This document shows positions 20,158 through 37,645 of a DNA stretch of 41,848 nucleotides, piece by piece. A program made the translations under genes and the position numbers. The notes under the pieces were generated by a model. The model saw only the letters and a program-made list of their open reading frames with translations. It searched no databases and was not told where the DNA came from. The first letter of the stretch is position 1. Each line of letters opens with the position of its first letter. The stretch comes from an uncultured Acidimicrobiaceae bacterium (lineage in GTDB: Bacteria > Actinomycetota > Acidimicrobiia > Acidimicrobiales > RAAP-2): assembly GCA_903873395.1 (NCBI GenBank), contig CAIQOJ010000130.1:1-41848 (forward strand), read 5' to 3'.

Positions 20158-21765
20158 TCAGTGGCACACCGTCCCGGTGGGTGGAGTGATGCCGTCGAGC
20201 AGGTAGCGCGACACGTCTGCTTGCATGCACGCATTGTCGGGTCCGCTGATGAGCCACGTGTGACCCCAACCGTCCCAGGTGAGCAGCGTGGACCGCGAGA
20301 TGTCGGCGGCCAGGTGGGTCGCCCCCACATAGGGGGTGCTGGGATCGCCCGTGGTCCCGATCACCAAGACCGGCGGTACACCCGTGACGGTGACGCCAGT
20401 TACGGGCTGGAGAGCGGTGGGCCACGCCACGCACCCACCGAGGTCTGCATTGACGCCAGCAGCTCCCAGCAGTGGCCAGGAGGCGGCTAGGCGGCGGGCC
20501 AGCTGTCCGGCAGCCTGGGGGCTGAGATGAGCGGCTGCGTCGTTGCAGAGGGTGGCCCACTGGGCATCCACCAGTGAGGATCCGTCGCCATCGGCAAGGG
20601 AACTGACGGCCATCGTTCGCAGCGGACCACCGTCGCCTTGGGCGGCCGCACCGAGGGCGTCGAAGAACTGGCCTTGGGTGCCCGGCACCGACACGGCGAG
20701 GAGTGCGGCTGTGTCGAGATCACCCACGGTCACCGGTAGTGCGTCACCACTGCCGGGGGCAGGCAGGGGCTGGGCGGTGAGGGCGGTCATCAGGTGCGTG
20801 TAGCTGGCCACCGGGTCCGCCCCGAGCCCACATCGCGTAGCCGTCGGGCATCTGCGGAGAAGGTGCAGCAAGGCGGCCTCGGCCGCCGGCGCCTGCTCGG
20901 TGGCTTGGGCCGACAACGAGGCGTTGACGTCCATGGCGCCGTCAAGGACCATCGTCGAGACACGGGTGGGGAAGAGCTTGGCGTAGACGGCACCGAGTTC
21001 GGTCCCGTACGAGAGCCCGTAGTAGCTGATCGCCGTCCGGCCGAGACCCTGGCGGATGCGGTCGATGTCACGGGCCGTGTTGATGGTGTCGATCGCTGGG
21101 GTCTCTGTGGGGTGGCGGGCCAGACAGGAGCGGGACATCGAAGTGAAGACGGGAGTCCCGGGCAGCTGCTCGCCCGGCCGGGCCGACACCGGCACGGTGC
21201 TGGTGATCGCCGCAGGGTCGGTGCCGCAGTCGAGGGGAGCACTGCTTGCCGACCCTCGGGGGTCGAAGCTCACCAGGTCGAACGACGAGCGGATGTCCGA
21301 ACTCAGGATGTCGGCGAGCACGGGGAGAATCAGATTGCCGCTCTCTCCAGGCCCGCCGGGATTGATGACCAACGTCCCGCGTCCACCCGGCCCCGTGGCT
21401 GGCATGCGGGTCACCGCGATAGCCAGCCAAGGCCCGGTTGGATGGTGGTAGTCGAGTGGCACCTGCACGGTCCCGCATTGGAGTCGGTCATCAGTCGGGC
21501 AGACCGCCCAGGTGATGGGCGCAGGGGGAGCGAGCTTGGGCACGGGGGCAGACAGCGCTGTGCTCGGCCCTGCGGTCGTCTCCTCAGATCCACCAGGTGA
21601 TCCAACCGAGGATCGACCGGTGTCCGTCGTGGTCGCACTGCACGAGCCGGTGGCGACGAGTAGCACGCCGACGGCGACCAAGGTGGCTTTGCGGCCCAGA
21701 TTGCTGGCGGAGTGACGGCCTGGCGTAGTCCTCCTGGTGAGGCTCGACCTTGGGTCGGAGGACAT
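20158..21765 (-). CDS. Exported alpha/beta hydrolase, TAP-like (peptidase S33 type)
   Basis: This 535-aa protein begins with a basic N-terminus and a hydrophobic stretch (KATLVAVGVLLVATGSC), probably a lipoprotein signal with Cys as anchor, although the lipobox is not ideal. A Thr/Ser/Pro linker follows. The hydrolase domain has the oxyanion segment VINPGGPGESG, DLVSFDPRG, the nucleophile Ser in YYGLSYGTELG (near residue 250), Asp in IGTTGDPSTPY and His in WDGWGHTW. The C-terminal TAP-like region is typical of actinobacterial tripeptidyl aminopeptidases and mycobacterial SlpD/CaeA-type lipoproteins. It probably cleaves small peptides or esters outside the cell membrane. Monocistronic. Confidence 0.9.
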   Translation of the reverse strand: MSSDPRSSLTRRTTPGRHSASNLGRKATLVAVGVLLVATGSCSATTTDTGRSSVGSPGGSEETTAGPSTALSAPVPKLAPPAPITWAVCPTDDRLQCGTVQVPLDYHHPTGPWLAIAVTRMPATGPGGRGTLVINPGGPGESGNLILPVLADILSSDIRSSFDLVSFDPRGSASSAPLDCGTDPAAITSTVPVSARPGEQLPGTPVFTSMSRSCLARHPTETPAIDTINTARDIDRIRQGLGRTAISYYGLSYGTELGAVYAKLFPTRVSTMVLDGAMDVNASLSAQATEQAPAAEAALLHLLRRCPTATRCGLGADPVASYTHLMTALTAQPLPAPGSGDALPVTVGDLDTAALLAVSVPGTQGQFFDALGAAAQGDGGPLRTMAVSSLADGDGSSLVDAQWATLCNDAAAHLSPQAAGQLARRLAASWPLLGAAGVNADLGGCVAWPTALQPVTGVTVTGVPPVLVIGTTGDPSTPYVGATHLAADISRSTLLTWDGWGHTWLISGPDNACMQADVSRYLLDGITPPTGTVCH

Positions 21766-24140: not shown

Positions 24141-25595
24141 CTAGCTACGAGGGGATCGAGCGGGGAGAACCGGCCCAAGCGTGCGTTGGCCGAGCGATCC
24201 CCACCAGACTCCCGCCCCATAGGCGGCATCGTCGGCCAGGCAGGCTGCGGCCCAGCGCACCGGATCGAGATCGGGACGCCGACTGACCCACTCGACGAGA
24301 GCTGGCACCAGAGCCAAGGCGACGGCAGCCCGGCGCCCTCGGCGCCCTGAAGCAGCGATGCCGAGGAGAGCAGGGGCCGCCACCAGGGTGCTGGCTCGAC
24401 CCAACCCGACGACCGTCCAGCCCACGGATCGGCCCGACCAGGCGACCGCCGTGCGGGCGGGTATGCCGGATGGCTGAACCGCTCGAACCAGTCGGACGGC
24501 CGACATCGCTGTCGCCAGACCAGCGATCAGTGGCTGGCTGGCCAGGATCCCGACTGCGGCGATAGTGGGCAACGGGGCGAGCTCGACTGGTGCAAGGCGA
24601 CCGGGATGTCGCACGGCCAACGGGCCGGCCGAGGTCCCGTAGCGGAACCGCCGGGCCAGGGTTTGGCGCCAACTGCTCGGCTCGGCGTGCGCAACGATGA
24701 CTTCGGGCAGGTAGCGGATCTGCCAACCGGCATCGGACAGGCGCCAGAGAAGATCGACGTCCTCTCCCACCCGCAGGCTCGAATCGAACCCCTCAACCTC
24801 TTCCAGGGCTCGCCGACGGACCACCAAGGCCGCTGTGGGTAGATAACGGACCTGTCGACGAGGGCCGACGGGACCCTCATGGGGGCCGAGATCGAGAGGC
24901 GACCGTTCGGCCAAGAAGCGCTGGAGGACCGAAGCTTTTCCCGGGTGGCCGGAACCCGCCGGCCTGATGCGGGGGGCCACGGCGCCAACGGTTGGATCGT
25001 CGAAGCACCAGGTGAGTCCATCGAGCCATCCGTCGGGCACGACGGTGTCGCTGTCGACGAAGGCCACCAACTCGCTCGCCGAGTTGGCCAACCCTGTAGC
25101 TCTCGACGCCCCAGGTCCGCCGTTGCCCGTGCGACGCTCAAGAGTCGCTCCATGGACGCGGCAGACCTCGGCGACGGCGGCGCCATCGGGCGAGGCGTCG
25201 TCGACGACCAGGACGGGATGATCATGGCCGAGTGACGCCAGGCAGCGCTCCAGCGCCTCGGGCCGCCCGAACGCCGGCACGATGATGGTCAGCGAAGGCG
25301 GGATGCCGCGAGATGCACCTGACAGTTCCGCCACGGTAGGCGGACGCGGATGGGCCACGCCGGCATCGACGAGGCGACCCGCCAAGGTCCGTGTGGCCAG
25401 ATCTACACCGCCATCACCCTGGCCGTCCGTTGATCCGTGCCTTCCAGGGCTGGTCAGGGCGGCAACAGCCCGCACGCCGGCGGGCGTCAAGGTCATGATC
25501 CGGCCGGGGTGGCCACCGGCCACCACGGTGCCGTGCCGGAAGGTTCGCACAGAGGGATCGAGGGTCAGTCTCCATCCCTCGGGCAGCACGCTCAT
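24141..25595 (-). CDS. mftF: MftF, mycofactocin glycosyltransferase
   Basis: This 484-aa protein combines an N-terminal region of about 100 residues with a GT-A family 2 domain: SLTIIVPAFGRPEALERCL, VVDDASPDG, and the DxD metal motif in FVDSDTVVPDGW (near residue 180). Hydrophobic helices follow (about residues 320-440). In mycobacteria MftF adds beta-1,4-linked glucose units to premycofactocin and is needed for the mature cofactor. The segment RRFRYGTSAGPLAVRHP is typical of this family. It is the last gene of the operon, 79 bp after the SDR gene, with no close terminator seen. The identification rests on sequence pattern plus the unambiguous mft context. Confidence 0.92.
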   Translation of the reverse strand: MSVLPEGWRLTLDPSVRTFRHGTVVAGGHPGRIMTLTPAGVRAVAALTSPGRHGSTDGQGDGGVDLATRTLAGRLVDAGVAHPRPPTVAELSGASRGIPPSLTIIVPAFGRPEALERCLASLGHDHPVLVVDDASPDGAAVAEVCRVHGATLERRTGNGGPGASRATGLANSASELVAFVDSDTVVPDGWLDGLTWCFDDPTVGAVAPRIRPAGSGHPGKASVLQRFLAERSPLDLGPHEGPVGPRRQVRYLPTAALVVRRRALEEVEGFDSSLRVGEDVDLLWRLSDAGWQIRYLPEVIVAHAEPSSWRQTLARRFRYGTSAGPLAVRHPGRLAPVELAPLPTIAAVGILASQPLIAGLATAMSAVRLVRAVQPSGIPARTAVAWSGRSVGWTVVGLGRASTLVAAPALLGIAASGRRGRRAAVALALVPALVEWVSRRPDLDPVRWAAACLADDAAYGAGVWWGSLGQRTLGPVLPARSPRS

Positions 25596-25674: not shown

Positions 25675-26493
25675 TCACAGGGCCAAGCCGCCGTCCACGG
25701 GTATCACCACACCGGTGAGGGCTGACGAAGTCGTGCCGGCCAGCCACACCAGTGCCGAGGCAACTTCGTCGGGGGACAAGACCCGACCCATGGGCTGCTG
25801 GGCGGCGAACTCTCCAGGACCTGCGAGGCCGTAGATACGCGCACTTTCGGCCAGCATGTCCGTGTCCGTCGAACCGGGGCTGACGGCATTGGCTGTCACT
25901 CCGGTGTCGCCGAGATCAACGGCCAGGCCCCGGACAAGACCGGCCACACCGGCCTTGGCCGCCCCATAGGCAGTGAGCCCGCCGAGTCCTCGGGTGGCCG
26001 CGGCAGAGGCCACCGCCAGATACCGACCCGAGCGCGGTGCGGGCCGCCGCAGGAGTGCGGGCACGCCGACCCGAGCCGCAATGATGGGCCCGAGGAGGTC
26101 GACGTCCAGGACGGCTTCGAGCTGGGCCTCGGGAAGCTCCCACAGAGGCACACCGCCGGCGATGACCCCGGCAACGGCGATCATGGCGTCAAGGCCTCCG
26201 AAGCGCTCTTCGGCCTCAGCGACGGCAGCGCCCAGCGCGGTGGCGTCGGTGGTGTCGGCGAGGTGGGCCACGACTCGAGGCCCGAAGTCGGCGTCTGGAG
26301 CAGTGGAATGGGCCGCCTCGGCCTGGGCCACCACATCGAACAACTCGGCCGGGGTCCCGAGTGGATAGGGGAGACGGGGGTCGTCCTCACCTCGGTCGAC
26401 AGCCACCACTGACCACCCTTGCGAGGCGAGTGCGACCACGGTGGCTGCCCCGATGCCTCGAGCGGCTCCGGTGACGACGGCGACACGGCTCAT
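25675..26493 (-). CDS. Mycofactocin-associated short-chain dehydrogenase/reductase
   Basis: This 272-aa SDR has the NAD motif TGAARGIG (residues 8-15), the active-site Ser region YLAVASAAATRGL, and YxxxK in YGAAKAG. After the second strand (VVAVDRGED) it has a long insertion, about 40 residues (DPRLPYPLGTPAELFDVVAQ and on) before HLADTTD. Insertions here are the mark of mycofactocin-dependent SDRs, where they cover the bound NAD and keep it from exchanging, so that mycofactocin must accept the electrons. The ATG overlaps the mftE stop (ATGA). Substrate unknown, probably a secondary alcohol. This one differs in insertion from the operon's other SDR. Confidence 0.88.
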   Translation of the reverse strand: MSRVAVVTGAARGIGAATVVALASQGWSVVAVDRGEDDPRLPYPLGTPAELFDVVAQAEAAHSTAPDADFGPRVVAHLADTTDATALGAAVAEAEERFGGLDAMIAVAGVIAGGVPLWELPEAQLEAVLDVDLLGPIIAARVGVPALLRRPAPRSGRYLAVASAAATRGLGGLTAYGAAKAGVAGLVRGLAVDLGDTGVTANAVSPGSTDTDMLAESARIYGLAGPGEFAAQQPMGRVLSPDEVASALVWLAGTTSSALTGVVIPVDGGLAL

Positions 26494-27257
26494 CGGCCTC
26501 CTCCTGTGTGTGAAGACGACGAAAACGAGGCTGGGGCCGATGAAGGGCCCGGCCCTGAAGGGCGGACATCCTCATCTGCTCGGCTGAGTGTTGCCACCGT
26601 CGACGCCAGATCGGCGGCGGCCTCGTCGAGAAGTGCCATGCCCGACTCGGCCGAGGCCCCGGTGGGGTCGCCTAGGACGCCGGAGGCCGAGATGGCCCGG
26701 ACGCCGTGTTCGGTCAACTCGGGAAGGAGTTCTGCGCCCGTCCTCAGATCCCCGGGGACCGCCTTGTCGAGAGCCACTCGAGCGGGGTCGAGAGCGAGCA
26801 GTAGCGATGTCTCGGTGGCTCCGGCATGAAGATCACCGCCCCAGCGAGGCCACCAACCGCGCACGGATCGTCCTTCGGCGGTCAAGCGACCTAGCGCCCT
26901 GCCCAGCGGGCCGGCATTGCCGCCGTGCGTGCACGCCAGCACGACGTGGGAGAAGGCGATGGTGGCTGAGCGACAGATCTCGACCAGGAGCAGTTCCGTG
27001 GCCTCCTGTCCGATGGAGAGGGTGCCCGGGAAGTCCTGGTGCTCACCCGATGACCCGTAGGGGACAGCCGGGGCGACGACGATCCGGGGCTCGAGCAGTG
27101 CTGCCCGCACGACCACGGCCTCAGCAATCTCGGTGTCGGTAGTCAAGGGCAGATGTAAGCCGTGCTGCTCGGTAGCCCCGAGCGGGATGACCAAGACGTC
27201 ACCAGAGGCCGCCCGGTCGCTCGCTTCGGGCCAGGCCATGTCGGCCAAGTGGGTCAC
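26490..27257 (-). CDS. mftE: MftE, creatininase-family peptidase
   Basis: This 255-aa creatininase-fold amidohydrolase has the expected metal ligands: Glu/His in LGATEQHG, Asp in TTDTEIA, His in SSGEHQDFPGTLS, the HGGN motif and Glu in HAGATETSL. MftE cuts the modified MftA precursor to release the C-terminal Val-Tyr derived AHDP, the cofactor core. It overlaps genes on both sides by 4 bp, so it is translationally coupled within the operon. The last 25 residues are a Ser/Pro-rich, low-complexity tail not needed for the fold. Confidence 0.93.
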   Translation of the reverse strand: MTHLADMAWPEASDRAASGDVLVIPLGATEQHGLHLPLTTDTEIAEAVVVRAALLEPRIVVAPAVPYGSSGEHQDFPGTLSIGQEATELLLVEICRSATIAFSHVVLACTHGGNAGPLGRALGRLTAEGRSVRGWWPRWGGDLHAGATETSLLLALDPARVALDKAVPGDLRTGAELLPELTEHGVRAISASGVLGDPTGASAESGMALLDEAAADLASTVATLSRADEDVRPSGPGPSSAPASFSSSSHTGGGR

Positions 27258-28180
27258 TGGGCTCCCCCGACGGCATCCGTGTCATCGAGATACCCGTGTC
27301 GAGCCAGGAATGCCAGCACGATGTCAGCGGCCTCGGCACTGCTGCCGGGTTCGACCACGGTGGGCGGGTCGTGGGCCACCTGGACGCCAGTCAGGTCGCG
27401 GAGACGCAGGCGGGCATCGGAGGCGCTCGGCGCCGGCTGGACTCGGGTGGGGGGCCGAAAGGGTGCTGGGGCGCCGATGTGGAGGAGGCCAGAGGCCGAA
27501 GTGGCATCGAGCGATCGGTCGACGGGCAAGGGGGTGTCGGCGGCAGCTAGGGCGCCGGCGAGTGAGGCCCGTCGGAGGCGCACGCCGGCTCCTTCCACCG
27601 AGCACACCGCCGGAAGTGGGACCGAGAGGCGTTCGCGCCAACCACCGTCGAGTCGGCGCTCAGCGATCAAGCGTCGGCCCTCGGCCTCGGGAGAGGCATC
27701 GTGGGCCAGCGCCACGAGTCCGAGCGCCTGGGCCGCGCCTAGCTCGTGGGCCAGATAGGCCGGAAGGGCACCGGTCCCTCGATCGATCGAGCGGTCGCCA
27801 CAGAGCACGACAGATGGATGCCCGAACGGTGCCATGGCGTCCACCAGAGCCCTGGCCAGTTGGCGCTCGTCACCGGCCAGCTCACCCACATAGCGGTGGC
27901 CGTCTCCTTCATCGCCCAGGGGAAGACGGACCAGTTCGACACCAAGTCCGGCCACCTCGCGCAAGACCGGCTCGATCGAGGCGGGTCCCGCGGCCAACAC
28001 CACGACCCGACCGTTCCAGGCCTCAGCCAGGCGCAGTGCGTGTTCCAGGGCGGCGGCATCGGCCGGTGTCAGGGCGACACCGAGGCGGTCCCTGGTGATC
28101 GTTCCGGCCAGTGGGTCGACATGAGGACGAAGGTCGGTGATGCGCAGGCAGGCGACCAAAAGCGGGACGTCGGTGCTCAT
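27254..28180 (-). CDS. etfB: Electron transfer flavoprotein beta subunit (FixA/EtfB type)
   Basis: This 308-aa protein follows the ETF-beta pattern: LLVACLRITDLRPHVDP at the N-terminus, ALEHALRLAEAWNGRVVVLAAGP, then CGDRSIDRGTGALPAYLAHELG and SVEGAGVRLRRASL. EtfB binds AMP and pairs with EtfA, which holds FAD, to move electrons between dehydrogenases and a membrane quinone reductase. I prefer ATG 28180, 4 nt after the fixX stop; an ATG at 28216 would overlap fixX by 32 bp. The protein is divergent and longer than usual (about 260). Its place inside a mycofactocin operon with etfA, fixC and fixX suggests a dedicated set. Confidence 0.85.
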   Translation of the reverse strand: MSTDVPLLVACLRITDLRPHVDPLAGTITRDRLGVALTPADAAALEHALRLAEAWNGRVVVLAAGPASIEPVLREVAGLGVELVRLPLGDEGDGHRYVGELAGDERQLARALVDAMAPFGHPSVVLCGDRSIDRGTGALPAYLAHELGAAQALGLVALAHDASPEAEGRRLIAERRLDGGWRERLSVPLPAVCSVEGAGVRLRRASLAGALAAADTPLPVDRSLDATSASGLLHIGAPAPFRPPTRVQPAPSASDARLRLRDLTGVQVAHDPPTVVEPGSSAEAADIVLAFLARHGYLDDTDAVGGAQ

Positions 28181-28184: not shown

Positions 28185-28493
28185 TCATCCGTTGTGGAAG
28201 ACGACACCGAAGCCACCGTCGGGATAGGTCCAGGTCAGGGCTCCTTCGCTGTTGCACACCATGTAACAGGTGCCACATTCGAAGCACTGCTCGTAGTTGA
28301 ACAGGATGCCGCCGTCAGCGGTTGGGGCGAAGAGGTTGGCCGGGCAGGCCGACACGCACGCCTTGGTGGTGCATGAGCGGCAGACATCGGCATCGACGGT
28401 GATGTGGGCCCGCTGGCCCACCCGGAAGTCGACGGTGGCCATGCGCTCGTCGAAGGAGATGCCCTGCCAGCGTCGTGGCTCCGTGGCGCTCAT
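28185..28493 (-). CDS. fixX: FixX-type ferredoxin-like protein
   Basis: This 102-aa protein matches FixX closely in layout: HITVDADVCRSCTTKACVSACPANLF, FNYEQCFECGTCYMVC, then the C-terminal LTWTYPDGGFGVVFHNG. Eight Cys are present, in a C-x2-C-x4-C-x3-CP group and a C-x2-C-x2-C-x3-C group. FixX supplies the iron-sulfur centre that, together with FixC, makes an ETF:quinone oxidoreductase. The ATG overlaps the fixC stop by 4 bp, as expected for partner subunits. Confidence 0.93.
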   Translation of the reverse strand: MSATEPRRWQGISFDERMATVDFRVGQRAHITVDADVCRSCTTKACVSACPANLFAPTADGGILFNYEQCFECGTCYMVCNSEGALTWTYPDGGFGVVFHNG

Positions 28494-29800
28494 CCGAAGA
28501 TCCTCAGGCCACGCAGCGTGTCGGCGGCCAGCTGGTGCAGCTTCACGCCGTGCTTGGCCGCGGCCCGTCGGGTCATCGACAGGCCGCCAGCCTTGGGTGT
28601 CGGATTCGTCACGGTGAACATCCCTTCGGCGAGGTCGCAGATGAGCCCCGGATAGCGCTGTTGGACCCGGTCCGACAGCACGAGAGACGGGGCCTTGCGC
28701 AATCGCTTGTGATCGGTGAGCACGAAGTTCGACTCCAGGTCGGCCCGATAGGAGGCGAGGCCCCGGGCCGAGGTGTCGCCGGCGACCAATGCCCGGTCAG
28801 CCGCCTGGCCGGCGGCCCACCCTGACCCGATGGCGAAGTTCACCCCTTCGAGCCACAAGCCTGCAGCCAGCGTCATGGCCGCAGCATCACCAGCAATGAG
28901 CAGCCCATCGGCAGCCAGCGGCGGCATGGTGTCATAGCCGCCCTCGGGGATGAGATGGGCCGAGTACTCGCGAAGCGTCGAGCCTCGCAGGAGAGGGGCG
29001 ATGGTCGGATGAGCGGTGAGATCAGAGATGAGCGCTTCGGGCCGTACTCCTGATGCCGCCAGTTGAGGAAGTGAGACGACGACACCGACGCTGATCGAGT
29101 CGGTGTTGGTGTAGAGGAACCCACCCCCAGGGATGGCCCGGGTGCAGCCCAGGATCTCCATGTCGACCCCTTCGTCGCTGGCCAGACCGAAGCGCTCCTC
29201 GATGACCGAGGGAGGTAGATGGTGCACCTCTTTGACACCGAGGGTGTGATGCGAGGCCTCGGCTCGGGGGAGCAGGCCCGCCTCTTTGGCCAGAAAGGAG
29301 TTGACGCCATCGCAGGCGATGACCACAGGTGCGTGCAGCTCGGCACCGTCACGATCGGTGCGAACCCCGGTCACGCGGCCCGAGGCATCACGCACGAGGC
29401 CGGTGGCCGTCGTAGACGTGAGTAGGCGGGCACCGGCTCCGGTGGCCTTCTCGGCCAGCCAGGCGTCGAAGTGGCACCGCAAGGTCGTCATCCCGTTGTA
29501 GGGGGCTTCACCCCATGCCTGGGTGCGGAAGTCGACCGACACGGACTGTGTGGGGGTCATCATCACTGTGGAGCGACGGACCACCCAGCGCTCGACCGGC
29601 ACTTCTTCCCACCAGCCCGGCACCATGTCGTCGAGCACTCGGCCATAGACCACGCCGCCGTAGACGTTTTTGGCTCCAGGGAACTGGCCGCGCTCGACCA
29701 TGATGACCGAGCGGCCTGCCCGGGCCAGGGCCAAGGCAGCAGATGCTCCGGCGGGACCGGCTCCGACCACGATGGCGTCGCAGGTGATGTGGTCAGTCAC
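28490..29800 (-). CDS. fixC: FixC-type flavoprotein, ETF:quinone oxidoreductase large subunit
   Basis: This 436-aa FAD protein starts at GTG 29800, where AGGAGG lies 6 nt upstream; the open frame upstream to 29821 has no such site. The Rossmann motif is DAIVVGAGPAGASAALALAR, followed by VERGQFPGAKNVYGGVVY, a mid-protein VIACDGVNSFLAKEAGL, and the second FAD motif DGLLIAGDAAAMTLAAGLWLEGVNFAIGSG. This is the FixC/ETF-QO family, which takes electrons from ETF and, with FixX, reduces membrane quinone. It overlaps etfA by 8 bp and fixX by 4 bp. Confidence 0.92.
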   Translation of the reverse strand: MTDHITCDAIVVGAGPAGASAALALARAGRSVIMVERGQFPGAKNVYGGVVYGRVLDDMVPGWWEEVPVERWVVRRSTVMMTPTQSVSVDFRTQAWGEAPYNGMTTLRCHFDAWLAEKATGAGARLLTSTTATGLVRDASGRVTGVRTDRDGAELHAPVVIACDGVNSFLAKEAGLLPRAEASHHTLGVKEVHHLPPSVIEERFGLASDEGVDMEILGCTRAIPGGGFLYTNTDSISVGVVVSLPQLAASGVRPEALISDLTAHPTIAPLLRGSTLREYSAHLIPEGGYDTMPPLAADGLLIAGDAAAMTLAAGLWLEGVNFAIGSGWAAGQAADRALVAGDTSARGLASYRADLESNFVLTDHKRLRKAPSLVLSDRVQQRYPGLICDLAEGMFTVTNPTPKAGGLSMTRRAAAKHGVKLHQLAADTLRGLRIFG

Positions 29801-30926
29801 TAGATCCTCCTGCAGGCCCACCTGCGCTGGAGCGCTCCAGGGTCGTGTGGCTCAACTCGTTGGGCACGTCCACTCCGAGCCGATGCGCCAGTTCGACGAG
29901 GAGTGCCCCGGCATCGGCAACAACGCCCAGGTCGGCCAGTGCGGTCATGGGGCACGACGGATCGAGGTTGACGCTGATGACGTGGCGAGGGGCACCGAGT
30001 CCGCCGGTGTGCTGGGTGGCGCCAGAGATCCCGAGGGCGATGTACAGATCAGGGTTCACGGTGATCCCGGTGGTGCCGATCTGGCGTTCGTAGGTTGTCC
30101 AGCCAGCATCGGTGGCCACCCGAGTGGCCCCGGCGGAACCACCCAGGGCGGCCGCGACGCCGGTCAGCAAGGTGAAGGCCGACGTGGCATGTGCGTCATC
30201 GAGGCCGGTGACGAGCCCCGCTCCGCCCGCCATGACCCGTGTTGCGTCAGTCAGATCCATGGTCTTGAGGTCTGGTGCGAGCAACGCAAGGAGGTCAGGG
30301 TCGCCAGCCGTGGGACCGCCGAGGCCCCGATCGGCCGTTGGGGACTCCATGACCATGTCGAACCTGGTGAGCGTGGCTGACGCCGGCGTTGTGCCGTGTG
30401 GCCCTGCCTGGTTGCTTCGAGCCAGGGTGACGACGGCTGGGCCGGTGACCTCGATGGGAACCATGACCTTGTCATCGATGCGGGCGACCACGGCTCGCAC
30501 CCCGAGCGATGCATCTCCGGGGCCCAACTGTGCTGACGGGCCCAACTGTGCTGACGGGTCCAACTGTGATGACAGGCTCGGCGATTCGATCACGTCGGCG
30601 GAGAAGATTCGTCCGAGGAGCGGGCGGTCGAGGATGGCGGCCAAGCGAGGAGCCAGGTCACGCCCGTCTGCGGAGGCCGCCAGGATGATCAGATGCACGT
30701 CCTCCACCAGGGGAGCCAAGGCGGCAGCCAAGGCGGCGGGACGGAATCCCGGGCCGGTGTCACACCAGCGCACCTCTCGCGCTGAGGTCAAGGCTCCAGC
30801 TGCTTCCTCGGCGCCGTGTCCAACCACCACAGCCCGGCCGCCAGCATCCGTCACCGCTTCGGCGGCCCACAGGGGGATCCGTCCCTCGCGAGTGACGACG
30901 ATGGCCACGGATGCCGATGACGTCAC
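29793..30926 (-). CDS. etfA: Electron transfer flavoprotein alpha subunit (FixB/EtfA type)
   Basis: This 377-aa protein starts at GTG 30926, overlapping the upstream flavoprotein gene (GTGA). The C-terminal FAD domain is clear: VMAGGAGLVTG, ATRVATDAGWTTYERQIGTTG, NPDLYIALGISGATQH and VISVNLDPSCPM. The N-terminal domain is more divergent. Between them lies a low-complexity insert QLDPSAQLGPSAQLGPGD made by an 18-bp tandem repeat. EtfA carries the FAD that shuttles electrons to the ETF:quinone oxidoreductase. Partner etfB lies two genes downstream; the order etfA-fixC-fixX-etfB is unusual compared with fixABCX. Confidence 0.92.
   Translation of the reverse strand: MTSSASVAIVVTREGRIPLWAAEAVTDAGGRAVVVGHGAEEAAGALTSAREVRWCDTGPGFRPAALAAALAPLVEDVHLIILAASADGRDLAPRLAAILDRPLLGRIFSADVIESPSLSSQLDPSAQLGPSAQLGPGDASLGVRAVVARIDDKVMVPIEVTGPAVVTLARSNQAGPHGTTPASATLTRFDMVMESPTADRGLGGPTAGDPDLLALLAPDLKTMDLTDATRVMAGGAGLVTGLDDAHATSAFTLLTGVAAALGGSAGATRVATDAGWTTYERQIGTTGITVNPDLYIALGISGATQHTGGLGAPRHVISVNLDPSCPMTALADLGVVADAGALLVELAHRLGVDVPNELSHTTLERSSAGGPAGGSSD
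30523..30576. repeat. 3 x 18-bp in-frame tandem repeat within etfA
   Basis: Units at 30523-30540, 30541-30558 and 30559-30576 (the first two identical, cccaactgtgctgacggg) encode a repeated six-residue QLGPSA-like linker between the N-terminal and FAD domains of EtfA. The frame is kept. Confidence 0.92.
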
Positions 30927-32887
30927 AGGTTCACCGCCACGCGCTGACCCTCGATGACGGCAGCATGGGCTCGTCTGGGGCTCACGCAATCGCCTACCCG
31001 GTGGACCTCGAACGGCTCGTTGCGCAGTTCATGGAACAGGCTGTCTTCGGCCTGCTGGTGGACGGCGCACACCACCCAATCGCAGATCCGCTCCTCGTCA
31101 GTGCCGGTGGGGTGGTGTTGGAGGCTGAGCGTGATCGGCCCTTCGTCACCCGGGCGGGACACGCCCATGGGCACGAGATCCGTGCTTTGGACGATGCCGC
31201 GATCGTGGGCCTTGACGTTCCAGGTCTCCATGTCCAAGGTGACCCCAAGGTCCTGGCCGACGACCATGCCATTGGTCACGATCTCCACGACGCAACCTCG
31301 GTCGGCGAGGAGTTCGGCCACCGAGGTGGCTTGATGGAAGCCGAGTTCGTCTACAACCACGACCCGCCCTTCGGGGTGGGCCCGGCCTTCCAAGACGTCG
31401 CGCACGTCGACCACCCGGCCGTCATCACCCGCCCACCAAGGACGCAGTGGTCGAGCACCGGTGGCCACCACGACGGCATCGGGTGCTTCGCCGCGGATGG
31501 TGGCCGCAGTCGCATCGACACCGGTTCGGATCTCCACGCCTTCGCGTTTGGCGGCGGCGATGAGGTTACGGGCGATATCGAAGAACTCGGCCCGACTGGG
31601 CACAATAGCTGCCACATGTGCTTGACCGCCGAGACGGACATGGCGCTCGAGTAGGACCACCTGGTGACCTCGCTCGGCCGCAGTGACCGCAGCCTGGAGC
31701 CCGCCGGGACCGCCGCCGACCACGACGACCTTCTTGTGGCGCCGGGGAGCGGGCAAGGGGACGGACTCCTTGCCGGTCCGAGGGTTCTCGATGCAGCCGA
31801 GCCATCGGTTGAGCCCCATGCGCCCGACGCACTCTTGGTTGCACGACAGGCAGGTACGGATGTCGCTGGCATGTCCCGACCGGGCCTTGGCGGCAAAATC
31901 CGGGTCGGCGATCTGGCCCCGAACGACACCAACCATGTCGCACAGGCCATCGGCCAGGGCTCGGTCGGCCTGGAGCGGATCCTTGAACCGGCCCACGCCG
32001 ACCACCGGCAGATCGACGGCAGCGCGGATGGCACTGGGAATGAACATGGCGTAGCCCGGCGGGATCTGCATGGAGGCTTCGATCATGTAGAGGGTGGCCG
32101 TGGCCACACCGATCGACGTGTTGATGTAGTCGACCTGACCGGTGGCCTCGACCATCCGGGCGATGGCCACGGCGTCATCGATGGTGGTGCCGCCCTCGAT
32201 CAGCTCGTCGCCACAGATGCGCACGCCCAAGGCTTTGTCGGCCCCGATGGTCGAGCGCACGGCGTCCACCAGCTCGAGAAGTAGACGTGCGCGATTGGCC
32301 AGTGATCCGCCGTAGGCGTCGGTCCGGTGATTGGTGGCTGGCGACAGGAAGCCGCGCACGATCGAGGAGTGCGAGCACTGGAGCTCGATGCCGTCAAAGC
32401 CTCCTGCCATGCAGTGGGCGCTCACCAGTGCGTAGCCGTCGATGATCTCCCGGATCTCATGCTCCTCGACGGCCTTGGGCACCTCACGAAAGAGCGGGTC
32501 AGGAACGGGTGATGGTGCCCACACCGGAAGGCGGGAGTACATCGAGGAGGCCTGGCCTCCGTTGTGATTGATCTGGGCGAAGATCGGCACTCCGTGGGCG
32601 TGCACGCGTTCGGTGATCCGCCGGTAGCCCTCGACGACTTCTGGATGGAAACCGTGGATCAGCTTCTCGTAGGGCCAGTCGGTCGGATGCGTCGAGTGCT
32701 CTTCGGTGATGATGAGCCCGGCCCCACCGATGGCCCGAGCCTCGTAGTAGGCAGCATGCTGCTCAGTGGGCACGCCATGGGTGGCGTAGTTGGTCAGGTG
32801 TGCAGAAAAGAGGACTCGATTGGTCACCGTCACCGGCCCGAGCCGGAGCGGTGTGAAGAGGTGGCGGTACGCGCCTGCGCTACTCAT
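30923..32887 (-). CDS. Mycofactocin-system OYE/FadH-family flavoprotein (second copy in operon)
   Basis: This 654-aa protein has the layout of 2,4-dienoyl-CoA reductase FadH: an N-terminal FMN TIM barrel (about 1-340; FTPLRLGPVTVTNRVLFSAH, FAQINHNGGQ, GFLSPATNHRTDAYGGSLAN), a 4Fe-4S motif CLSCNQEC...C (C-x2-C-x3-C-x11-C), and a FAD/NAD domain (VVVVGGGPGGLQAA). The catalytic Tyr and His of FadH appear not to be conserved (CSHSSIVRGF and TSIGVATA at those places). NCBI families TIGR03996/TIGR03997 describe such proteins as tied to mycofactocin; I assign by memory of those families plus context. The role is unknown: electron transfer between mycofactocin and ETF is an inference. GTGA overlap with etfA supports partnership. 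Confidence 0.88.
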   Translation of the reverse strand: MSSAGAYRHLFTPLRLGPVTVTNRVLFSAHLTNYATHGVPTEQHAAYYEARAIGGAGLIITEEHSTHPTDWPYEKLIHGFHPEVVEGYRRITERVHAHGVPIFAQINHNGGQASSMYSRLPVWAPSPVPDPLFREVPKAVEEHEIREIIDGYALVSAHCMAGGFDGIELQCSHSSIVRGFLSPATNHRTDAYGGSLANRARLLLELVDAVRSTIGADKALGVRICGDELIEGGTTIDDAVAIARMVEATGQVDYINTSIGVATATLYMIEASMQIPPGYAMFIPSAIRAAVDLPVVGVGRFKDPLQADRALADGLCDMVGVVRGQIADPDFAAKARSGHASDIRTCLSCNQECVGRMGLNRWLGCIENPRTGKESVPLPAPRRHKKVVVVGGGPGGLQAAVTAAERGHQVVLLERHVRLGGQAHVAAIVPSRAEFFDIARNLIAAAKREGVEIRTGVDATAATIRGEAPDAVVVATGARPLRPWWAGDDGRVVDVRDVLEGRAHPEGRVVVVDELGFHQATSVAELLADRGCVVEIVTNGMVVGQDLGVTLDMETWNVKAHDRGIVQSTDLVPMGVSRPGDEGPITLSLQHHPTGTDEERICDWVVCAVHQQAEDSLFHELRNEPFEVHRVGDCVSPRRAHAAVIEGQRVAVNL

Positions 32888-32900: not shown

Positions 32901-33728
32901 TCATCGGTTCGTTGCTCCCGCGTCAACGGTCATGGTGAGACCGGTCACGAATCGAGACTCGTCCGAGGCCAAGAACAGCACGGCGTCGGACACATCATCG
33001 ACGCCGATCAGCGTGGCGGGCAGCGCGTTGTCGAACAGGGGTCCAGTTGCCGGCTGGTCCTCGATGTAGCCGGTGAGCGGCACCATGCCTCCCAGCATGG
33101 TGGTGCCCACTCCGGTCGGGTGCAGCGAGTTCACCCGGATCTTGCGGGGAGCCAACTCGTTGGCCAGGCTCCGCATGATGCCCACTACCCCGTGCTTGGA
33201 GGCGACATAGGGGGTGAGGAAGGGCAGACCTTTGAGACCTGACGTGGAGCTGATGAGGATCAACGATCCGCCACCTGGTGCCACAACGTGGGGGAGTGCG
33301 GCCTGACAGGTGTTCCATACACCGGTCAGGTTGATGCCGATCACCGTCTCCCAGAGTTCAGGGGTGATCTCGTCCCAACGCTGCGTGGAGACCACCCCGG
33401 CATTGGCTACCACCACATCGAGCCGACCGAATGCACCTACCCCTGCGGCTACCGCTTCGACCATGCCGGCTGCGTCGCGCACATCGACTTCAGTGGTGTG
33501 GACGCCAGCCCCGGTGGCAGCCACCTGGCGCGCCGTCTCTTCGAGATCGGCAGTGGTGGCGGTGTCGTAACCCAGGTGCGGGACGGGACCGCAGACGTCG
33601 ACCAAGATCAGGTCGGCACCCTCCTCGGCCAGGCGCACCGCATGGTTGCGTCCCTGTCCTCGGGCTGCCCCTGTCACCAGTGCCACCTTGCCCGACAATC
33701 GTCCAGGGCGCGACTCGGTCGAACTCAT
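32901..33728 (-). CDS. Mycofactocin-coupled SDR family oxidoreductase
   Basis: This 275-aa SDR matches the mycofactocin-coupled subfamily (TIGR03971 type): LSGKVALVTGAARGQGRNHAVRLAEEGADLILVD, then a roughly 25-residue insertion (CGPVPHLGYDTATTADLEET). NAG is at VVANAGV, the Ser is in LILISSTSGLKG, and YxxxK is in YVASKHG. In structures of this subfamily the insertion shields NAD so it is not exchanged, and an external acceptor, mycofactocin, is required. The likely reaction is oxidation of a secondary alcohol, such as a carveol-type compound, to a ketone. Its ATG overlaps the upstream flavoprotein stop (ATGA). Confidence 0.93.
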   Translation of the reverse strand: MSSTESRPGRLSGKVALVTGAARGQGRNHAVRLAEEGADLILVDVCGPVPHLGYDTATTADLEETARQVAATGAGVHTTEVDVRDAAGMVEAVAAGVGAFGRLDVVVANAGVVSTQRWDEITPELWETVIGINLTGVWNTCQAALPHVVAPGGGSLILISSTSGLKGLPFLTPYVASKHGVVGIMRSLANELAPRKIRVNSLHPTGVGTTMLGGMVPLTGYIEDQPATGPLFDNALPATLIGVDDVSDAVLFLASDESRFVTGLTMTVDAGATNR

Positions 33729-35749
33729 GCCATGACCCCGGCCAGCGATGGGGTGGCCGACGAGTCATCGTTCACCGTGATGGATACGCCGCAAAGTTCG
33801 AGTGCTCGGCGTCGACCTTCGAGCACAGCTTCCAGGGCTGTGCGAGGGGCAACGCAGTCACCGGCTCGTGGTGTTCCTGGTCGAGCGTCGTAGAGCGCCT
33901 CGTCGGGCAGGCGCTGTCCGCAGTCGATGACAACAGAGGCAGGTACGACGCGTGGTTGGCCGGTCCAGACGTCCTCGAGTTGGACGGCGCCCTCATGGGC
34001 CCCACGCAGGAGCGCACGACGCTCTCGTGCGACCCCGGCCCGCTGGAGACGCACGTTGGCATCAGCGAGGTCGCCGGTGAGCGAGAGGAGCGTGCCGCAG
34101 ATCTGGTCTTGGGTGACGATTGCCACCGTGCGACCCGCTGCAGCCAACCACTCGGCCACACCGATGGCGATGGGTCCGCCGATGGGGTCATGGACGACCA
34201 CCGTGCCCTCAGGGAGGTCCTCGGGCGCGCCCGCCAGAGCGCTTCGGGCATCGAGCACGGTGACGGAGGCATCGGAGGAGAACGCAGGTGGTGCGGAACG
34301 GCTGCCGGTGGCGAGCACTACAGCGACCCCTGCCTCCCTGGCCGAATCGAGTTCTTCGGCCACAACTTCACGACCGGTGGCAATAGTCACACCCAGTGAC
34401 CGACATGACGCTTCCAGCCAGTCGACCAACGCCGCCAGACGGGTGCGACCTGGGCCGATGGCGGCATCGCGCAGCGCACCTCCGGTCCGATCGGTCTGCT
34501 CAGCCACCTCGACCTGCCATCCACGCGTGGCCAGCACCCGGGCGCACTCGAGTCCGGCTGCTCCCGCTCCCACCACCAGGGCACGTGGTGGCGTAGGCGT
34601 CATCGCCACCGTCGGCTCCTCAACCGGTCGGTCGACGACGGGATCGGTGGTTTCGTGGCCGGCCCGAGGATCGGAGACGCAACTGATGATCGGGTTGCGG
34701 TTGTCACGCACTCGACAGGCCTGGTTGCACAAGATGCACGGCCGCACCGGCTCGTTGGCGGCAACCTTGGCCACGAAGTTCGGCTCGGCGATCTGGGCTC
34801 GAGTGAGCTCCACCAGGTCGGCCGAGCAATCGGCCAGTGCCTCTTCGGCCATAGCCGCATCCACGACGCTGCCTTGGAGTACCACGGGTACTCGGCCTGC
34901 GGCGACCTGTCGCATGGTCTGACAGAGGTCGAGGTTGAACCCGGCCGGAGTATGGGCATCTGGGCGGTAGGCGGTGGCCGAATAGGGACCGCCCCGGACC
35001 ACGGTCATCAGGTCGAGGCGATCGGCCAGGGTGTCGACGAACACCGCCGCATGCTCAGGGGTGGTTCCTGCCCACGGGGCGAGTTCGTCGCACGACAGGC
35101 GAAGGGCCAGCACCTTGTCGGGACCGATGGCCGACCGGACGGCATAGAGGACCTGGGTGGTGAGGAGAAGCTTGTCGTGGCCGTAGGCGTCGTCCCGTTG
35201 GTTGGTGATACCCGAGTGGAATTGGCGAAGCAGCGATAACGCCCCAGCATCCACCTCGACCCCGTCCATCCCAGCGGCTACGGCCAGTCGGGCCGCCTCG
35301 CCAAAGCCAGCCACCACGGTGTTGATCTCGTCGGCGCCCATGGCCATGGGAAGTTCCCGGCTGGCTGCGTCGGCAACCGGCGAGGGAGCCCACAAGGCGG
35401 ACTGCGAGTAGGCGCTCGACCCCTGACCGCCCGCATGCCCTAGGCCGGCAAGAACGACAGCCCCAACGGCATGGCAGGTCGAGGCCACGGCCTGCCAGCC
35501 CTGTGAGCACTCGGTGGCCAGGGGCGCGCGTTCGTAGGGCCAATCGGACGGGTGGACCGAAGCGGTCTCGGTGATGATCACACCGGCTCCACCCGCTGCC
35601 CGAGCTTGGTAGTACGCGACGTGGCGCCGCCCGATGGCTCGGTCGTCTGCCAGGTTCGTCTCGTGGGGACCGAACACGGCTCGAGACGGTGCCTCGACCC
35701 CGGCCAAGGTGATCGGGTCCGCTAGGCGGACACCGCCGTCAACGGTCAT
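33725..35749 (-). CDS. Mycofactocin-system OYE/FadH-family flavoprotein (first copy, after mftC)
   Basis: This 674-aa paralogue of the 30.9-32.9 kb protein starts at ATG 35749, overlapping the mftC stop (ATGA). It has a TIM barrel (LADPITLAGVEAPSRAVFGPHE, VVLAGLGHAGGQ, FHSGITNQRDDAYG), a 4Fe-4S motif CILCNQAC...C (spacing 2-3-11), and a FAD domain (ALVVGAGAAGLECARVL). The barrel is divergent: the FadH proton-donor Tyr position reads GALSLLRQF, and the His loop is shortened to TVVRGGPYSATAY. The second GxGxxG region is HDPIGGPIAIG. It takes the place that mftD has in mycobacterial loci, directly after mftC. Function unknown; a part in cofactor maturation or reoxidation is inference. Confidence 0.87.
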   Translation of the reverse strand: MTVDGGVRLADPITLAGVEAPSRAVFGPHETNLADDRAIGRRHVAYYQARAAGGAGVIITETASVHPSDWPYERAPLATECSQGWQAVASTCHAVGAVVLAGLGHAGGQGSSAYSQSALWAPSPVADAASRELPMAMGADEINTVVAGFGEAARLAVAAGMDGVEVDAGALSLLRQFHSGITNQRDDAYGHDKLLLTTQVLYAVRSAIGPDKVLALRLSCDELAPWAGTTPEHAAVFVDTLADRLDLMTVVRGGPYSATAYRPDAHTPAGFNLDLCQTMRQVAAGRVPVVLQGSVVDAAMAEEALADCSADLVELTRAQIAEPNFVAKVAANEPVRPCILCNQACRVRDNRNPIISCVSDPRAGHETTDPVVDRPVEEPTVAMTPTPPRALVVGAGAAGLECARVLATRGWQVEVAEQTDRTGGALRDAAIGPGRTRLAALVDWLEASCRSLGVTIATGREVVAEELDSAREAGVAVVLATGSRSAPPAFSSDASVTVLDARSALAGAPEDLPEGTVVVHDPIGGPIAIGVAEWLAAAGRTVAIVTQDQICGTLLSLTGDLADANVRLQRAGVARERRALLRGAHEGAVQLEDVWTGQPRVVPASVVIDCGQRLPDEALYDARPGTPRAGDCVAPRTALEAVLEGRRRALELCGVSITVNDDSSATPSLAGVMA

Positions 35750-36984
35750 CGAGTGGGATCCACGTCCACGGCAAATCCGGCCAACGGATTTTCGTCGCAG
35801 GTGCGGTCGGGTCGACGTGAGGGCGACAGCGCCACGGCCACCTTGCGGGGGGATGCTGAGTGATCCGGGAAGGGCCGAGGGGTCTCCACGTCGCCTCGTC
35901 CCAACAGGGCAGCCTCGCCATGACCGAGGACGCATTCGGGGTCCGGACCGTCGAGGGGAAGTCCGGTGAAGAACTTGGCGGCCATGCAGCCACCCCTACA
36001 GGCGTCGTAGTGGCCACAACTGCCGCACGCCCCCGGGCTCTGTGGCGCCCGCAACTCGGTGAAGAGTTCCGAAGACCGCCACACGTCGGTGAACCCGCCA
36101 AGCGATCGGACATTGCCGGCCAGGAACTCATCGTGGATGGCGAACGGGCAGGCATAGACGTCACCGACCGGATCGACGAGACAGACCACCCGGCCTGCGC
36201 CACAAAGATTGAGACCAGGAAGGGCTTCGCCGTAGCCGGCCAGATGGAAGAAGGAGTCACCAGTGAGCACCGAGTCGCCGTGGGCCACGAGCCAGTCGTA
36301 GAGGAGGCGTTGCTGATCAGCGGTGGGATGCAGTTCGTCCCAGGTGTCTGCCCCTCGGCCAGCCGGCCGCAGCCGGGTGAGTCGGAGCTGGGCCTGGTAG
36401 CGGTCGGCGATCGCCTTGAAGGCATCGAGTTGGGTGACGTTGTGACGGGTCACCACCACCGAAAGTTTGAATCCCGTGAACCCGGCGGAAGCCAGGCGGT
36501 CCATGGCTGTCATGGCTGTGGCAAAGGTGCCGTCACCTCGCACGGCATCGTTGACCTCAGGGGTGGCTCCGTCCAACGAGATCTGGACGTCGACATAGTC
36601 ACTCGATGCAAGTCGGGTGGCGACCTCGGGAGTGATGCGTGAACCGTTCGTGGAGAACTTGACCCCAACGTGGTGCTCGGTGGCGTAGTCGACGAGTTCC
36701 CAGAAATCGGACCTGATGGTCGGCTCGCCCCCACCGATGTTCACGTAGAAGATCTGCATGCGCTCGAACTCATCGATGAGGGCCTTGCACTCCTCAGTGG
36801 TGAGCTCGCGGGGGTCTCGACGCCCAGAGCTGGACAGGCAGTGCACGCATGCCAGGTTGCAGGCGTAGGTCAGCTCCCAGGTGAGGCAGATGGGGGCATC
36901 AAGACCGCGCTCGAAGCGGTCGACCAGGCGGAGGCCTGCGGGAACTGGCTGGTGATCGGTAGTTGTCATCGTGTCAATGGTCAT
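35746..36984 (-). CDS. mftC: MftC, mycofactocin radical SAM maturase
   Basis: This 412-aa radical SAM enzyme has the cluster motif C42-x3-C46-x2-C49 (YACNLACVHC), the GGE motif in VNIGGGEPTIR, and a SPASM C-terminus with further Cys (NLCGAG, VVCLVDPVGDVYACPF, GACGSCGHYDACRGGC, PDPEC) for two auxiliary clusters. MftC decarboxylates the C-terminal Tyr of MftA and then joins it to the Val, using MftB to present the peptide. ATG 36984 overlaps the mftB stop (ATGA); the open frame upstream to 37080 lies inside mftB. The tail of about 35 residues after the last Cys is low complexity. Identification is firm. Confidence 0.97.
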   Translation of the reverse strand: MTIDTMTTTDHQPVPAGLRLVDRFERGLDAPICLTWELTYACNLACVHCLSSSGRRDPRELTTEECKALIDEFERMQIFYVNIGGGEPTIRSDFWELVDYATEHHVGVKFSTNGSRITPEVATRLASSDYVDVQISLDGATPEVNDAVRGDGTFATAMTAMDRLASAGFTGFKLSVVVTRHNVTQLDAFKAIADRYQAQLRLTRLRPAGRGADTWDELHPTADQQRLLYDWLVAHGDSVLTGDSFFHLAGYGEALPGLNLCGAGRVVCLVDPVGDVYACPFAIHDEFLAGNVRSLGGFTDVWRSSELFTELRAPQSPGACGSCGHYDACRGGCMAAKFFTGLPLDGPDPECVLGHGEAALLGRGDVETPRPFPDHSASPRKVAVALSPSRRPDRTCDENPLAGFAVDVDPTR

Positions 36985-37328
36985 GCCACTCGCTCGCAGA
37001 TCATGTTGGAGTCGGCCAGCGCGGAGAGCGCTTGGGCGTAGTTGGCCAACTCGGCTTCGGGCACACCAGCAGCCAGGCACGCATCAAGGCCTGTGGGCTG
37101 GTCGGCCAGGGACTCGACCACGGCGAGCAGCGTCCGGCTCTTCAAGAACGAGAGCCGGCGTGTTCCGAAGTGGTAGGCCAGCGCACCGAACGACTCCGGG
37201 CGCAACGACACCTGAGGGTGAAGCATCCATGCCCGCGCTGGGTCGTACCCATGAGGGGCGGTTGGATCATCAACCATCGAGGCTTCGCCCGAATCGGTCA
37301 CCACATCTGAAGTAGTCACTGCGCGCAC
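36981..37328 (-). CDS. mftB: MftB, RRE-fold peptide chaperone for MftA
   Basis: This protein of up to 115 aa has the MftB core YDPARAWMLHPQVSLRPE, FGALAYHFGTRRLSFLKS, followed by a helical part resembling PqqD-type RiPP recognition elements. It binds the MftA leader and delivers it to MftC. The start is uncertain: GTG 37328, GTG 37319 and ATG 37277 are all in frame and none has a strong ribosome-binding site; the conserved core begins after all of them. It lies 27 bp after mftA. Confidence 0.95.
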   Translation of the reverse strand: MRAVTTSDVVTDSGEASMVDDPTAPHGYDPARAWMLHPQVSLRPESFGALAYHFGTRRLSFLKSRTLLAVVESLADQPTGLDACLAAGVPEAELANYAQALSALADSNMICERVA

Positions 37329-37355: not shown

Positions 37356-37511
37356 TTAGTAGACGCCGCACATTCCGTCGATGGAGACATCTTCGACAAG
37401 GAGATCAGAGGTGACCAGGACTTCGGTGGCCTCAATGCCTTCTGAGGCGGCGACATCGGTGGTGACCATCTGGTCGGCGCCTGCGGTGACGGGTGCGGTG
37501 GTGGGTGTCAT
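37356..37511 (-). CDS. mftA: MftA, mycofactocin precursor peptide (51 aa)
   Basis: This short ORF ends in SIDGMCGVY, matching the invariant IDGMCGVY end of MftA; the final Val-Tyr becomes the redox core of mycofactocin. The leader is acidic and Thr/Ala-rich (TPTTAPVTAGADQMVTTDVA) and has no other Cys. ATG 37511 has GGAGGAA 4-5 nt upstream, a strong site suited to a substrate needed in excess. It is the first gene of the operon, divergent from mftR. Length is somewhat above the 30-50 aa typical of the family. Confidence 0.98.
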   Translation of the reverse strand: MTPTTAPVTAGADQMVTTDVAASEGIEATEVLVTSDLLVEDVSIDGMCGVY

Positions 37512-37645
37512 CGGTTCCTCCATCGGGTTCGTGAGCGGGTCACGGCCAACTCGGGGTTGGCCGTCCTGCGATCATCCTGCCTGCATCCACAAGGTTCTTG
37601 GGACCAGGTACTGCAATTTACTGCACTCGATGCCAGAATGAAAGC
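37512..37645. promoter_or_regulatory. mftA-mftR divergent promoter region with direct repeats
   Basis: This short region must hold promoters for both directions and an MftR operator. TACTGCA occurs twice exactly 10 bp apart (37609-37615 and 37619-37625), one helical turn, around an AT-rich core (AATTTA). TetR regulators usually bind inverted repeats, so these direct repeats are only candidates. Confidence 0.45.

Follow-up and report, generated by a model that had tools for sequence, protein, structure and literature searches.

When mftD is deleted, M. smegmatis no longer makes mycofactocin and accumulates 3-amino-5-[(p-hydroxyphenyl)methyl]-4,4-dimethyl-2-pyrrolidinone (AHDP), which MftD deaminates to premycofactocin (PMC7491314). 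This MftD step is aerobic (PMC8406134). In nicotine-degrading Agrobacterium tumefaciens S33, Pno, which is related to the histamine and trimethylamine dehydrogenases, passes electrons to the electron transfer flavoprotein (ETF) EtfAB and then through Euo to coenzyme Q, and the components are encoded in one gene cluster (PMC7688666), which is likewise described in PMC5500553. Trimethylamine dehydrogenase (TMADH) and histamine dehydrogenase also pass electrons to ETF (PMC6502838). In this study, we analyzed a DNA stretch of 41,848 nucleotides (the window), which is the whole contig CAIQOJ010000130.1 (C130) from the genome of an uncultured Acidimicrobiaceae bacterium (2.82 Mb, 142 contigs, 94% complete). 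Its mycofactocin operon carries etfA, fixC, fixX, and etfB together with the genes for two flavoproteins of the FadH/old yellow enzyme (OYE) family, OYE1 and OYE2; we refer to this gene set as the module. Because mftA (with its product ending in VY), mftB, mftC, mftE, and mftF are present, mftD is absent, and loss of mftD abolishes the cofactor, a substitute enzyme is required. We propose that etfA-fixC-fixX-etfB and OYE2, usually with OYE1, replace MftD in the conversion of AHDP to premycofactocin, a reading that we consider probable while leaving appreciable room for doubt.

In the proposed reaction, the flavin mononucleotide (FMN) of OYE2 would oxidize the C–N bond of AHDP, and the two electrons would travel from the [4Fe-4S] cluster of OYE2 to EtfAB and on to FixCX, which would reduce the quinone pool. 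Hydrolysis would then free ammonia and the redox-active ketone. We infer that AHDP is the substrate, that OYE2 is the catalyst, that electrons flow in this direction, and that quinone accepts them in the end. What the data show is the gene set itself, its location between mftC and mftE, and the fact that, on plasmids and within one class, it alternates almost perfectly with mftD. In many bacteria, and in some archaea, that make mycofactocin without MftD, the oxygen-using enzyme completing the core of the cofactor, this flavin and iron-sulfur set probably carries out the same step and delivers the electrons to the respiratory chain.

Conservation of the module and its alternation with mftD

We searched 395 genomes of the class Acidimicrobiia, scoring in each the best five candidates for mftC, five for mft_etfB, and three for mftG. 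Of these genomes, 95 have mftC and 34 have a match to mft_etfB at E 1e-38 or better; the match exceeds the curated cut-off in 30 of the 34, and 33 of the 34 also possess mftC. In the remaining one, G654, no mftC was found, and the etfB-positive genomes of the same genus, G091 and G188, both have it. In a sample of the phylum, mft_etfB was above the cut-off in 7 of 296 genomes. After six near-duplicate loci had been removed by shared 60-mers, the order etfA-fixC-fixX-etfB (A-C-X-B) was found in all 90 loci with the four genes, on a single strand in 87, which argues that the arrangement is not due to chance. In the loci L115, L119, and L272, fixC lies on the strand opposite to that of etfA, fixX, and etfB, with the gene order unchanged. 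mftD was present in none of the 90 loci within the stretch fetched for each. EtfB proteins of mycofactocin loci formed one clade, with a support of 100/100, apart from 22 ordinary EtfB proteins, including that of the generic ETF encoded on contig C46 of the window genome. This tree was built without the fragments gen_L029 and gen_L023 (25% of columns filled), and an earlier tree containing both gave no single clade of this kind. An earlier note on this DNA had claimed that the ETF and the ETF:quinone oxidoreductase are dedicated to mycofactocin, and the link to mftC and the separate clade substantiate this; the clustering with ordinary β-oxidation ETFs that the note had named as contrary evidence was not seen for EtfB.

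The best match to the mftD model (TIGR03966) in the window genome scored 123.2 bits, below the cut-off of 470.85, an absence that the earlier note had missed. We looked for mftD and OYE2 (TIGR03997) in 80 class genomes, namely the 34 with etfB and 46 mftC genomes without an etfB match, corresponding to 79 of the 95 mftC genomes plus G654. OYE2 occurred at 674 bits or more in 41 of the 80 and mftD above its cut-off in 40: forty genomes had OYE2 without mftD, 39 had mftD without OYE2, one had both, and none had neither (Fisher's exact p 7.6e-22, with kinship ignored). In the sole overlap, G554, mftC is present twice, and one copy shares an operon with mftD. The scores of the OYE2 positives, at least 674 bits, were separated by a gap from those of the 39 negatives, at most 545 bits; 38 positives exceeded the curated cut-off, and the others were G403 (764 bits) and the partial matches of G442 (787) and G607 (675). 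All seven genomes with neither an etfB match nor mftD possessed OYE2. The mftC regions of G403, G585, G601, and G627 are annotated with OYE1, OYE2, EtfA, FixC, and FixX, that of G442 contains the end of OYE2 and OYE1, that of G623 contains pieces of OYE1, and the contig of G483 is too short. The 16 omitted mftC genomes are all etfB-negative (G230, G368, G399, G410, G477, G504, G519, G576, G593, G615, G621, G562, G583, G422, G466, and G481), and the mftC locus was fetched for all of them except G466 and G481. Eleven have mftD at the locus, and the fetched stretches of G504, G593, and G422 contain neither mftD nor module genes.

In an mftC tree built from 77 genomes, with G492 left out for its short sequence, G554 for its two mftC copies, and G654 for the lack of an mftC match, the label changed 15 times, at least five times on well-supported branches, as estimated by a quick method with some long branches. 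Both types occurred within the genera g1 (G643 versus the window genome G000, G500, and G659) and g222 (G471 versus G641). An independent-pairs sign test on this tree (p 0.0625) was not used as evidence because the labels are complementary by construction.

The same alternation was observed on plasmids. Among 12 PLSDB plasmids with mftC at E 1e-60, the content of which was read from the plasmids and not from the host chromosomes, four had mftD without the module (Streptomyces NBC_00080, Mycolicibacterium chubuense, Tsukamurella tyrosinosolvens, and Thermomicrobium roseum) and eight had the module without mftD. The latter were bacterial (Streptomyces NBC_00564, NBC_00557, SAT1, yangpuensis, NBC_00334, and lavendulae) and archaeal (Haloterrigena turkmenica and Halolamina CBA1230). 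The Streptomyces lavendulae plasmid is unannotated and was checked by BLAST, with identities equal to those of yangpuensis, so the two may represent one lineage. In the archaeal sets, the gene order is likewise kept, with one OYE gene, EtfA, FixC, an 8-Cys FixX, and EtfB. The archaeal OYE is 37% identical to OYE2 and 30–31% to OYE1; the archaeal EtfB gave no BLAST match to the window EtfB and was assigned from annotation and place. In the haloarchaeal plasmids (L313, 15480–24473; L316, 14485–23992), genes for a VWA-domain protein and an AAA ATPase follow the ETF/Fix/OYE set, and the ETF genes are not labeled as mycofactocin-associated in the record. The module operons L317–L320 on Streptomyces plasmids adjoin polyketide or other specialized-metabolite genes.

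The module lay between mftC and mftE on one strand in 50 of the 53 distinct loci that had mftC, mftE, and the whole module, and mftD was found between mftC and mftE in Streptomyces NBC_00080 and Tsukamurella. The replacement of mftD by the module is well supported by genomics. Since the module tracks mftD, a role in making mycofactocin is the more economical reading. We lean toward the broader view that the module is a second premycofactocin synthase found across bacteria and archaea, in which an OYE-type AHDP dehydrogenase, EtfAB, and FixCX would be coupled to the respiratory chain through quinone, with no O2 as the direct acceptor, and that it was swapped with MftD several times. Anaerobiosis as the cause of the swap was considered and dropped because the hosts of the module include Streptomyces, Saccharopolyspora, and haloarchaea, which we take to be aerobes.

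Flavoproteins of the module and rival explanations

OYE2 (30923–32887, minus strand; TIGR03997 996.5 bits, cut-off 793.15), the proposed AHDP dehydrogenase, is a three-domain FMN/4Fe-4S/nucleotide flavoprotein. Its structural model (mean pLDDT 80.5) has the three-domain fold, as judged from a Foldseek TMq of 0.86 to 6l6j, 3k30, and 2tmd. Full-length matches among those listed were NCR, FadH, the 6-hydroxypseudooxynicotine (6-HPON) amine oxidase HisD, histamine dehydrogenase, and TMADH, and three of these five oxidize C–N bonds. The [4Fe-4S] cysteines C346, C349, C353, and C365 are invariant in 16 aligned sequences. In the last domain, all 16 have D-[ED]-x-GFH in place of the glycine dinucleotide motif, and OYE2 is therefore read as not using NAD(P)H. 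We decided against placing OYE2 simply within the TMADH group because its active-site stretch is QCSH versus YCAH or YGAH; by analogy, it would work like the amine dehydrogenases without belonging to their subgroup. OYE1 (33725–35935, minus strand; mycofactocin system FadH/OYE family oxidoreductase 1, TIGR03996 877.9 bits, cut-off 627.9) keeps the four cluster cysteines and has DAGA (consensus NAGQ) in the barrel where OYE2 has QCSH. Judging from these residues, OYE1 may be a partner subunit without the catalytic site of OYE2.

EtfA (29793–30926, minus strand, GTG start) and EtfB (27254–28180, minus strand, ATG start) exceeded the cut-offs of NF038209 mft_etfA (356.1 bits, cut-off 240) and TIGR04503 mft_etfB (317.5 bits, cut-off 200), in agreement with the surmise of the earlier note that NCBI might already name some of these proteins as mycofactocin-associated. 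FixC (28490–29800, minus strand, GTG start), the flavoprotein of the ETF:quinone oxidoreductase, matched 7koe_C (FixC) by phmmer at E 5.3e-69 and 2gmh_A at E 1e-15, which establishes homology to ETF:quinone oxidoreductases, quinone reduction itself being only predicted. FixX (28185–28493, minus strand; NF011993 FixX 55.8 bits, under the cut-off of 166) is a ferredoxin-like subunit with eight Cys residues that are each at least 90% conserved among 39 sequences. FixC and FixX matched generic models only, under the NCBIfam cut-offs. EtfA of the mycofactocin loci has GGAGL in place of the GGRG of ordinary ETFs (GG[YF]GL in the archaeal EtfA). EtfB has a drGsGsvP consensus (31 sequences) in place of the DGDT-x-QVG of 7koe_A and 4kpu_B, and this region is partly deleted in G500.

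Several observations weigh against a replacement of MftD by the module. The Tyr-x-Ala-His stretch of 6l6j and 6de6 (YCAH, YGAH), which we take to be catalytic in the barrel of amine dehydrogenases, is missing in OYE2, and the best full-length matches of OYE2 are the reductases NCR and FadH, slightly ahead of the amine enzymes. OYE1 is without an assigned role, and only one OYE gene is seen in the archaeal clusters. EtfA no longer has the GGRG arginine found in ordinary ETFs, so its function as an ETF is assumed. Among the class regions that have mftD with mftC and mftE, mftD lies between both on one strand in only 6 of 13, and the shared position is therefore supporting evidence only; among 76 loci, the annotated gene that follows EtfB is mftE in 49 and SDR2 in 25. 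Outside the class, where 43 of 80 loci were picked by organism name, from which their status was also judged (L242 and L247 are near-duplicates), mftD was above the cut-off in 8 of the 43 OYE2 genomes, namely seven Saccharopolyspora and Pseudonocardia bannensis; in Amycolatopsis rhizosphaerae (G693), mftD is in two pieces split across contigs. A second mftC, immediately followed by mftD, is present in only two of the eight, G669 and G676, and the other six hold mftD with a single mftC. G670, G671, G672, G688, and G704 (Saccharopolyspora) and G697 have a full mftD alongside the OYE/ETF module and one mftC each; in G688 and G704, no other mft genes were found within approximately 1.5 kb of mftD. 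Saccharopolyspora G696 and G698 have two mftC copies and no mftD above the cut-off. The alternation rule is thus strong within the class and leaky elsewhere.

The earlier note had read the module as an electron exit in place of MftG, with the OYE or ETF proteins oxidizing reduced mycofactocin and passing the electrons to quinone. FixC does resemble an ETF:quinone oxidoreductase, and the absence of mftG from the window genome held, with no match to TIGR03970, the single model searched, at E 1e-3 in this 94%-complete assembly; the MftG models in PMC11778925 also include TIGR04542 and NF038210. The same paper states that approximately 25% of mftC genomes lack mftG, leaving what substitutes for it as an open question, and that the premycofactocin couple (-255 mV) could reduce menaquinone (-74 mV). 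However, the distribution of mftG does not follow the module. It was above the cut-off in just 1 of the 395 class genomes, G649, which carries the module, and the 62 genomes that have mftC but no etfB match all lack an mftG above this cut-off; TIGR03970 matches at E 1e-30 or better occurred in 130 of the 395, nearly all under the cut-off (matches to the glucose-methanol-choline (GMC) family). OYE2 and an mftG above the cut-off are both missing from the 39 genomes of the mftD type. Outside the class, mftG accompanies the module in 2 of the 43 OYE2 genomes, and over all the genomes covered the two occur together in G649, G675, and G697. Counting the co-occurrence of the ETF genes with the absence of mftG, as the earlier note had suggested, therefore spoke against the module as a stand-in for MftG: mftG is lacking across the class irrespective of the module, and its absence is uninformative on the ETF genes specifically. 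An electron exit also leaves the alternation with mftD unexplained. We rejected it as the main reading and regard it as unlikely, and it may be an additional, second role of the module.

The other alternatives account for less. Clusters without mftD might make a chemically different mycofactocin, the module oxidizing or desaturating AHDP otherwise and no premycofactocin being formed; OYE2 is equally close to enoyl/aryl-CoA reductases and to amine dehydrogenases, and the product of the module clusters is not described in the literature passages covered. Both kinds of cluster, however, are accompanied by relatives of the same genes for short-chain dehydrogenases/reductases (SDR) and N,N-dimethyl-4-nitrosoaniline (NDMA)-dependent alcohol dehydrogenases, which suggests the same active cofactor and makes this alternative rather improbable. 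A bifurcating EtfABCX (FixABCX) that supplies low-potential electrons to the radical SAM enzyme MftC was considered from the likeness to FixABCX: FixC is nearest to the Thermotoga complex 7koe, FixX retains its eight Cys residues, and five of six solved EtfB matches come from bifurcating complexes. The DGDT motif, which we take to be the mark of bifurcation, is replaced in EtfB and partly deleted in G500, and with the GGRG arginine also lost, this ETF is unusual and bifurcation less likely. Moreover, mftD genomes possess MftC yet no module, and OYE2 would be left without a role. We set bifurcation aside on the EtfB motif as very improbable. An ordinary β-oxidation ETF set placed in the operon by chance would fit the generic ETF and FixC family matches, but the separate EtfB clade, the order kept in 90 of 90 loci, and the generic ETF already encoded on contig C46 refute it, and we give it almost no credence.

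Operon layout and neighboring genes

The operon lies on the minus strand in the order mftA, mftB, mftC, OYE1, SDR1, OYE2, etfA, fixC, fixX, etfB, mftE, SDR2, and mftF. The start codons of EtfA, FixC, FixX, and EtfB are our choice, and the coupling distances depend on them. The GTG start of EtfA overlaps the stop of OYE2 by 4 nt, FixC, the GTG of which is preceded by AGGAGG, overlaps EtfA by 8 nt, FixX overlaps FixC by 4 nt, a 4-nt gap separates FixX from EtfB, and mftE overlaps EtfB by 4 nt. The coupling of the four genes inside the operon described in the earlier note was thus confirmed, but the interval 28185–30926 that it gave for them is incomplete, with etfB falling outside it.

The precursor peptide gene mftA (37356–37523; inferred ATG start) has a frame ending in SIDGMCGVY, and the chaperone gene mftB (36981–37328) was assigned from its place just ahead of mftC and from BLAST to relatives at the same position. 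The longest frame of mftC, coding for the radical SAM maturase, spans 35746–37080 (TIGR03962 654.5 bits, cut-off 265). SDR1 (32901–33728; TIGR03971 343.6 bits, cut-off 300) and SDR2 (25675–26493; TIGR04504 326.2 bits, cut-off 250) are mycofactocin-coupled SDR oxidoreductases. mftE (26490–27257; TIGR03964 256.5 bits, cut-off 172) codes for the peptidase that releases AHDP and mftF (24141–25595; TIGR03965 358.2 bits, cut-off 280) for a glycosyltransferase; like mftC, OYE1, and OYE2, both exceeded their NCBIfam cut-offs. An NDMA-dependent alcohol dehydrogenase, a probable mycofactocin-using enzyme, is encoded at 38454–39752 on the plus strand (TIGR03989 490.3 bits, cut-off 440). Downstream of mftF is a gene for a TAP-like α/β hydrolase (20158–21765), which has a counterpart near mftF in G659 (58% identity). 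The window genome also has a third OYE2-like gene apart from the operon (C69:1489–3030, 429 bits).

Comparison with known systems

The protein families are already named by NCBI, and their link to mycofactocin is known. The window proteins are members of NF038209, TIGR04503, TIGR03996, and TIGR03997 above the curated cut-offs, and the model names give the association with mycofactocin, with no function or link to mftD shown. Among the papers listed from the open-access literature, most subscription journals being outside our scope, we found nothing linking mycofactocin to ETF and no statement on the function of the module or its alternation with mftD. PMC7913881 applies the label "mycofactocin system FadH/OYE family" to homologs of Pseudomonas XenA and gives no mycofactocin role. 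Geobacter and Pelotomaculum are strict anaerobes. Both are among the mycofactocin carriers, and TIGR03966 is present in most, not all, mycofactocin species (PMC3023750). If our proposal is true, it fills the missing step in mycofactocin clusters without mftD, provides a function for four NCBIfam families whose names state none, and implies that the quinone pool can be connected to the maturation of a redox cofactor itself. It likewise keeps apart two questions that the earlier note had merged, how mycofactocin is made and how it is re-oxidized, and for genomes with mftD but no mftG the module data do not answer the latter. The carriers of the module include cultured Streptomyces, Saccharopolyspora, and Amycolatopsis, which makes the proposal testable now.

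MftG (TIGR03970) resembles the module in that it, too, would link mycofactocin to respiration; it differs in belonging to the GMC family, is absent here, and does not track the module in its presence. FixABCX and the Thermotoga EtfABCX (7koe) consist of four homologous subunits, with a FixC and a FixX. The module differs from them in its A-C-X-B order, in an EtfB without the DGDT motif, and in an EtfA without the GGRG arginine. The earlier note had rightly pointed out this unusual order and the lack of nif and cai genes nearby, none of which were found among the window proteins scanned with family models. Like the module, the Pno/EtfAB/Euo system, in which Pno is related to HisD, brings together in one cluster a TMADH-type flavoprotein with FMN and a [4Fe-4S] center, an ETF of its own, and an ETF:quinone oxidoreductase, and electron transfer from OYE2 to ETF is proposed by analogy from co-occurrence and operon structure. 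Unlike OYE2, Pno is close to histamine dehydrogenase, and the active-site stretch of the HisD relative 6l6j differs from that of OYE2; unlike the FixC and FixX pair, Euo is named EtfQO. MftD (TIGR03966), the known enzyme for the step, belongs to the same pathway as the module, often occupies the same place between mftC and mftE, and alternates with it, and we propose the same reaction for both. However, MftD is an unrelated, lactate dehydrogenase-like FMN enzyme, encoded by a single gene, and its reaction is aerobic.

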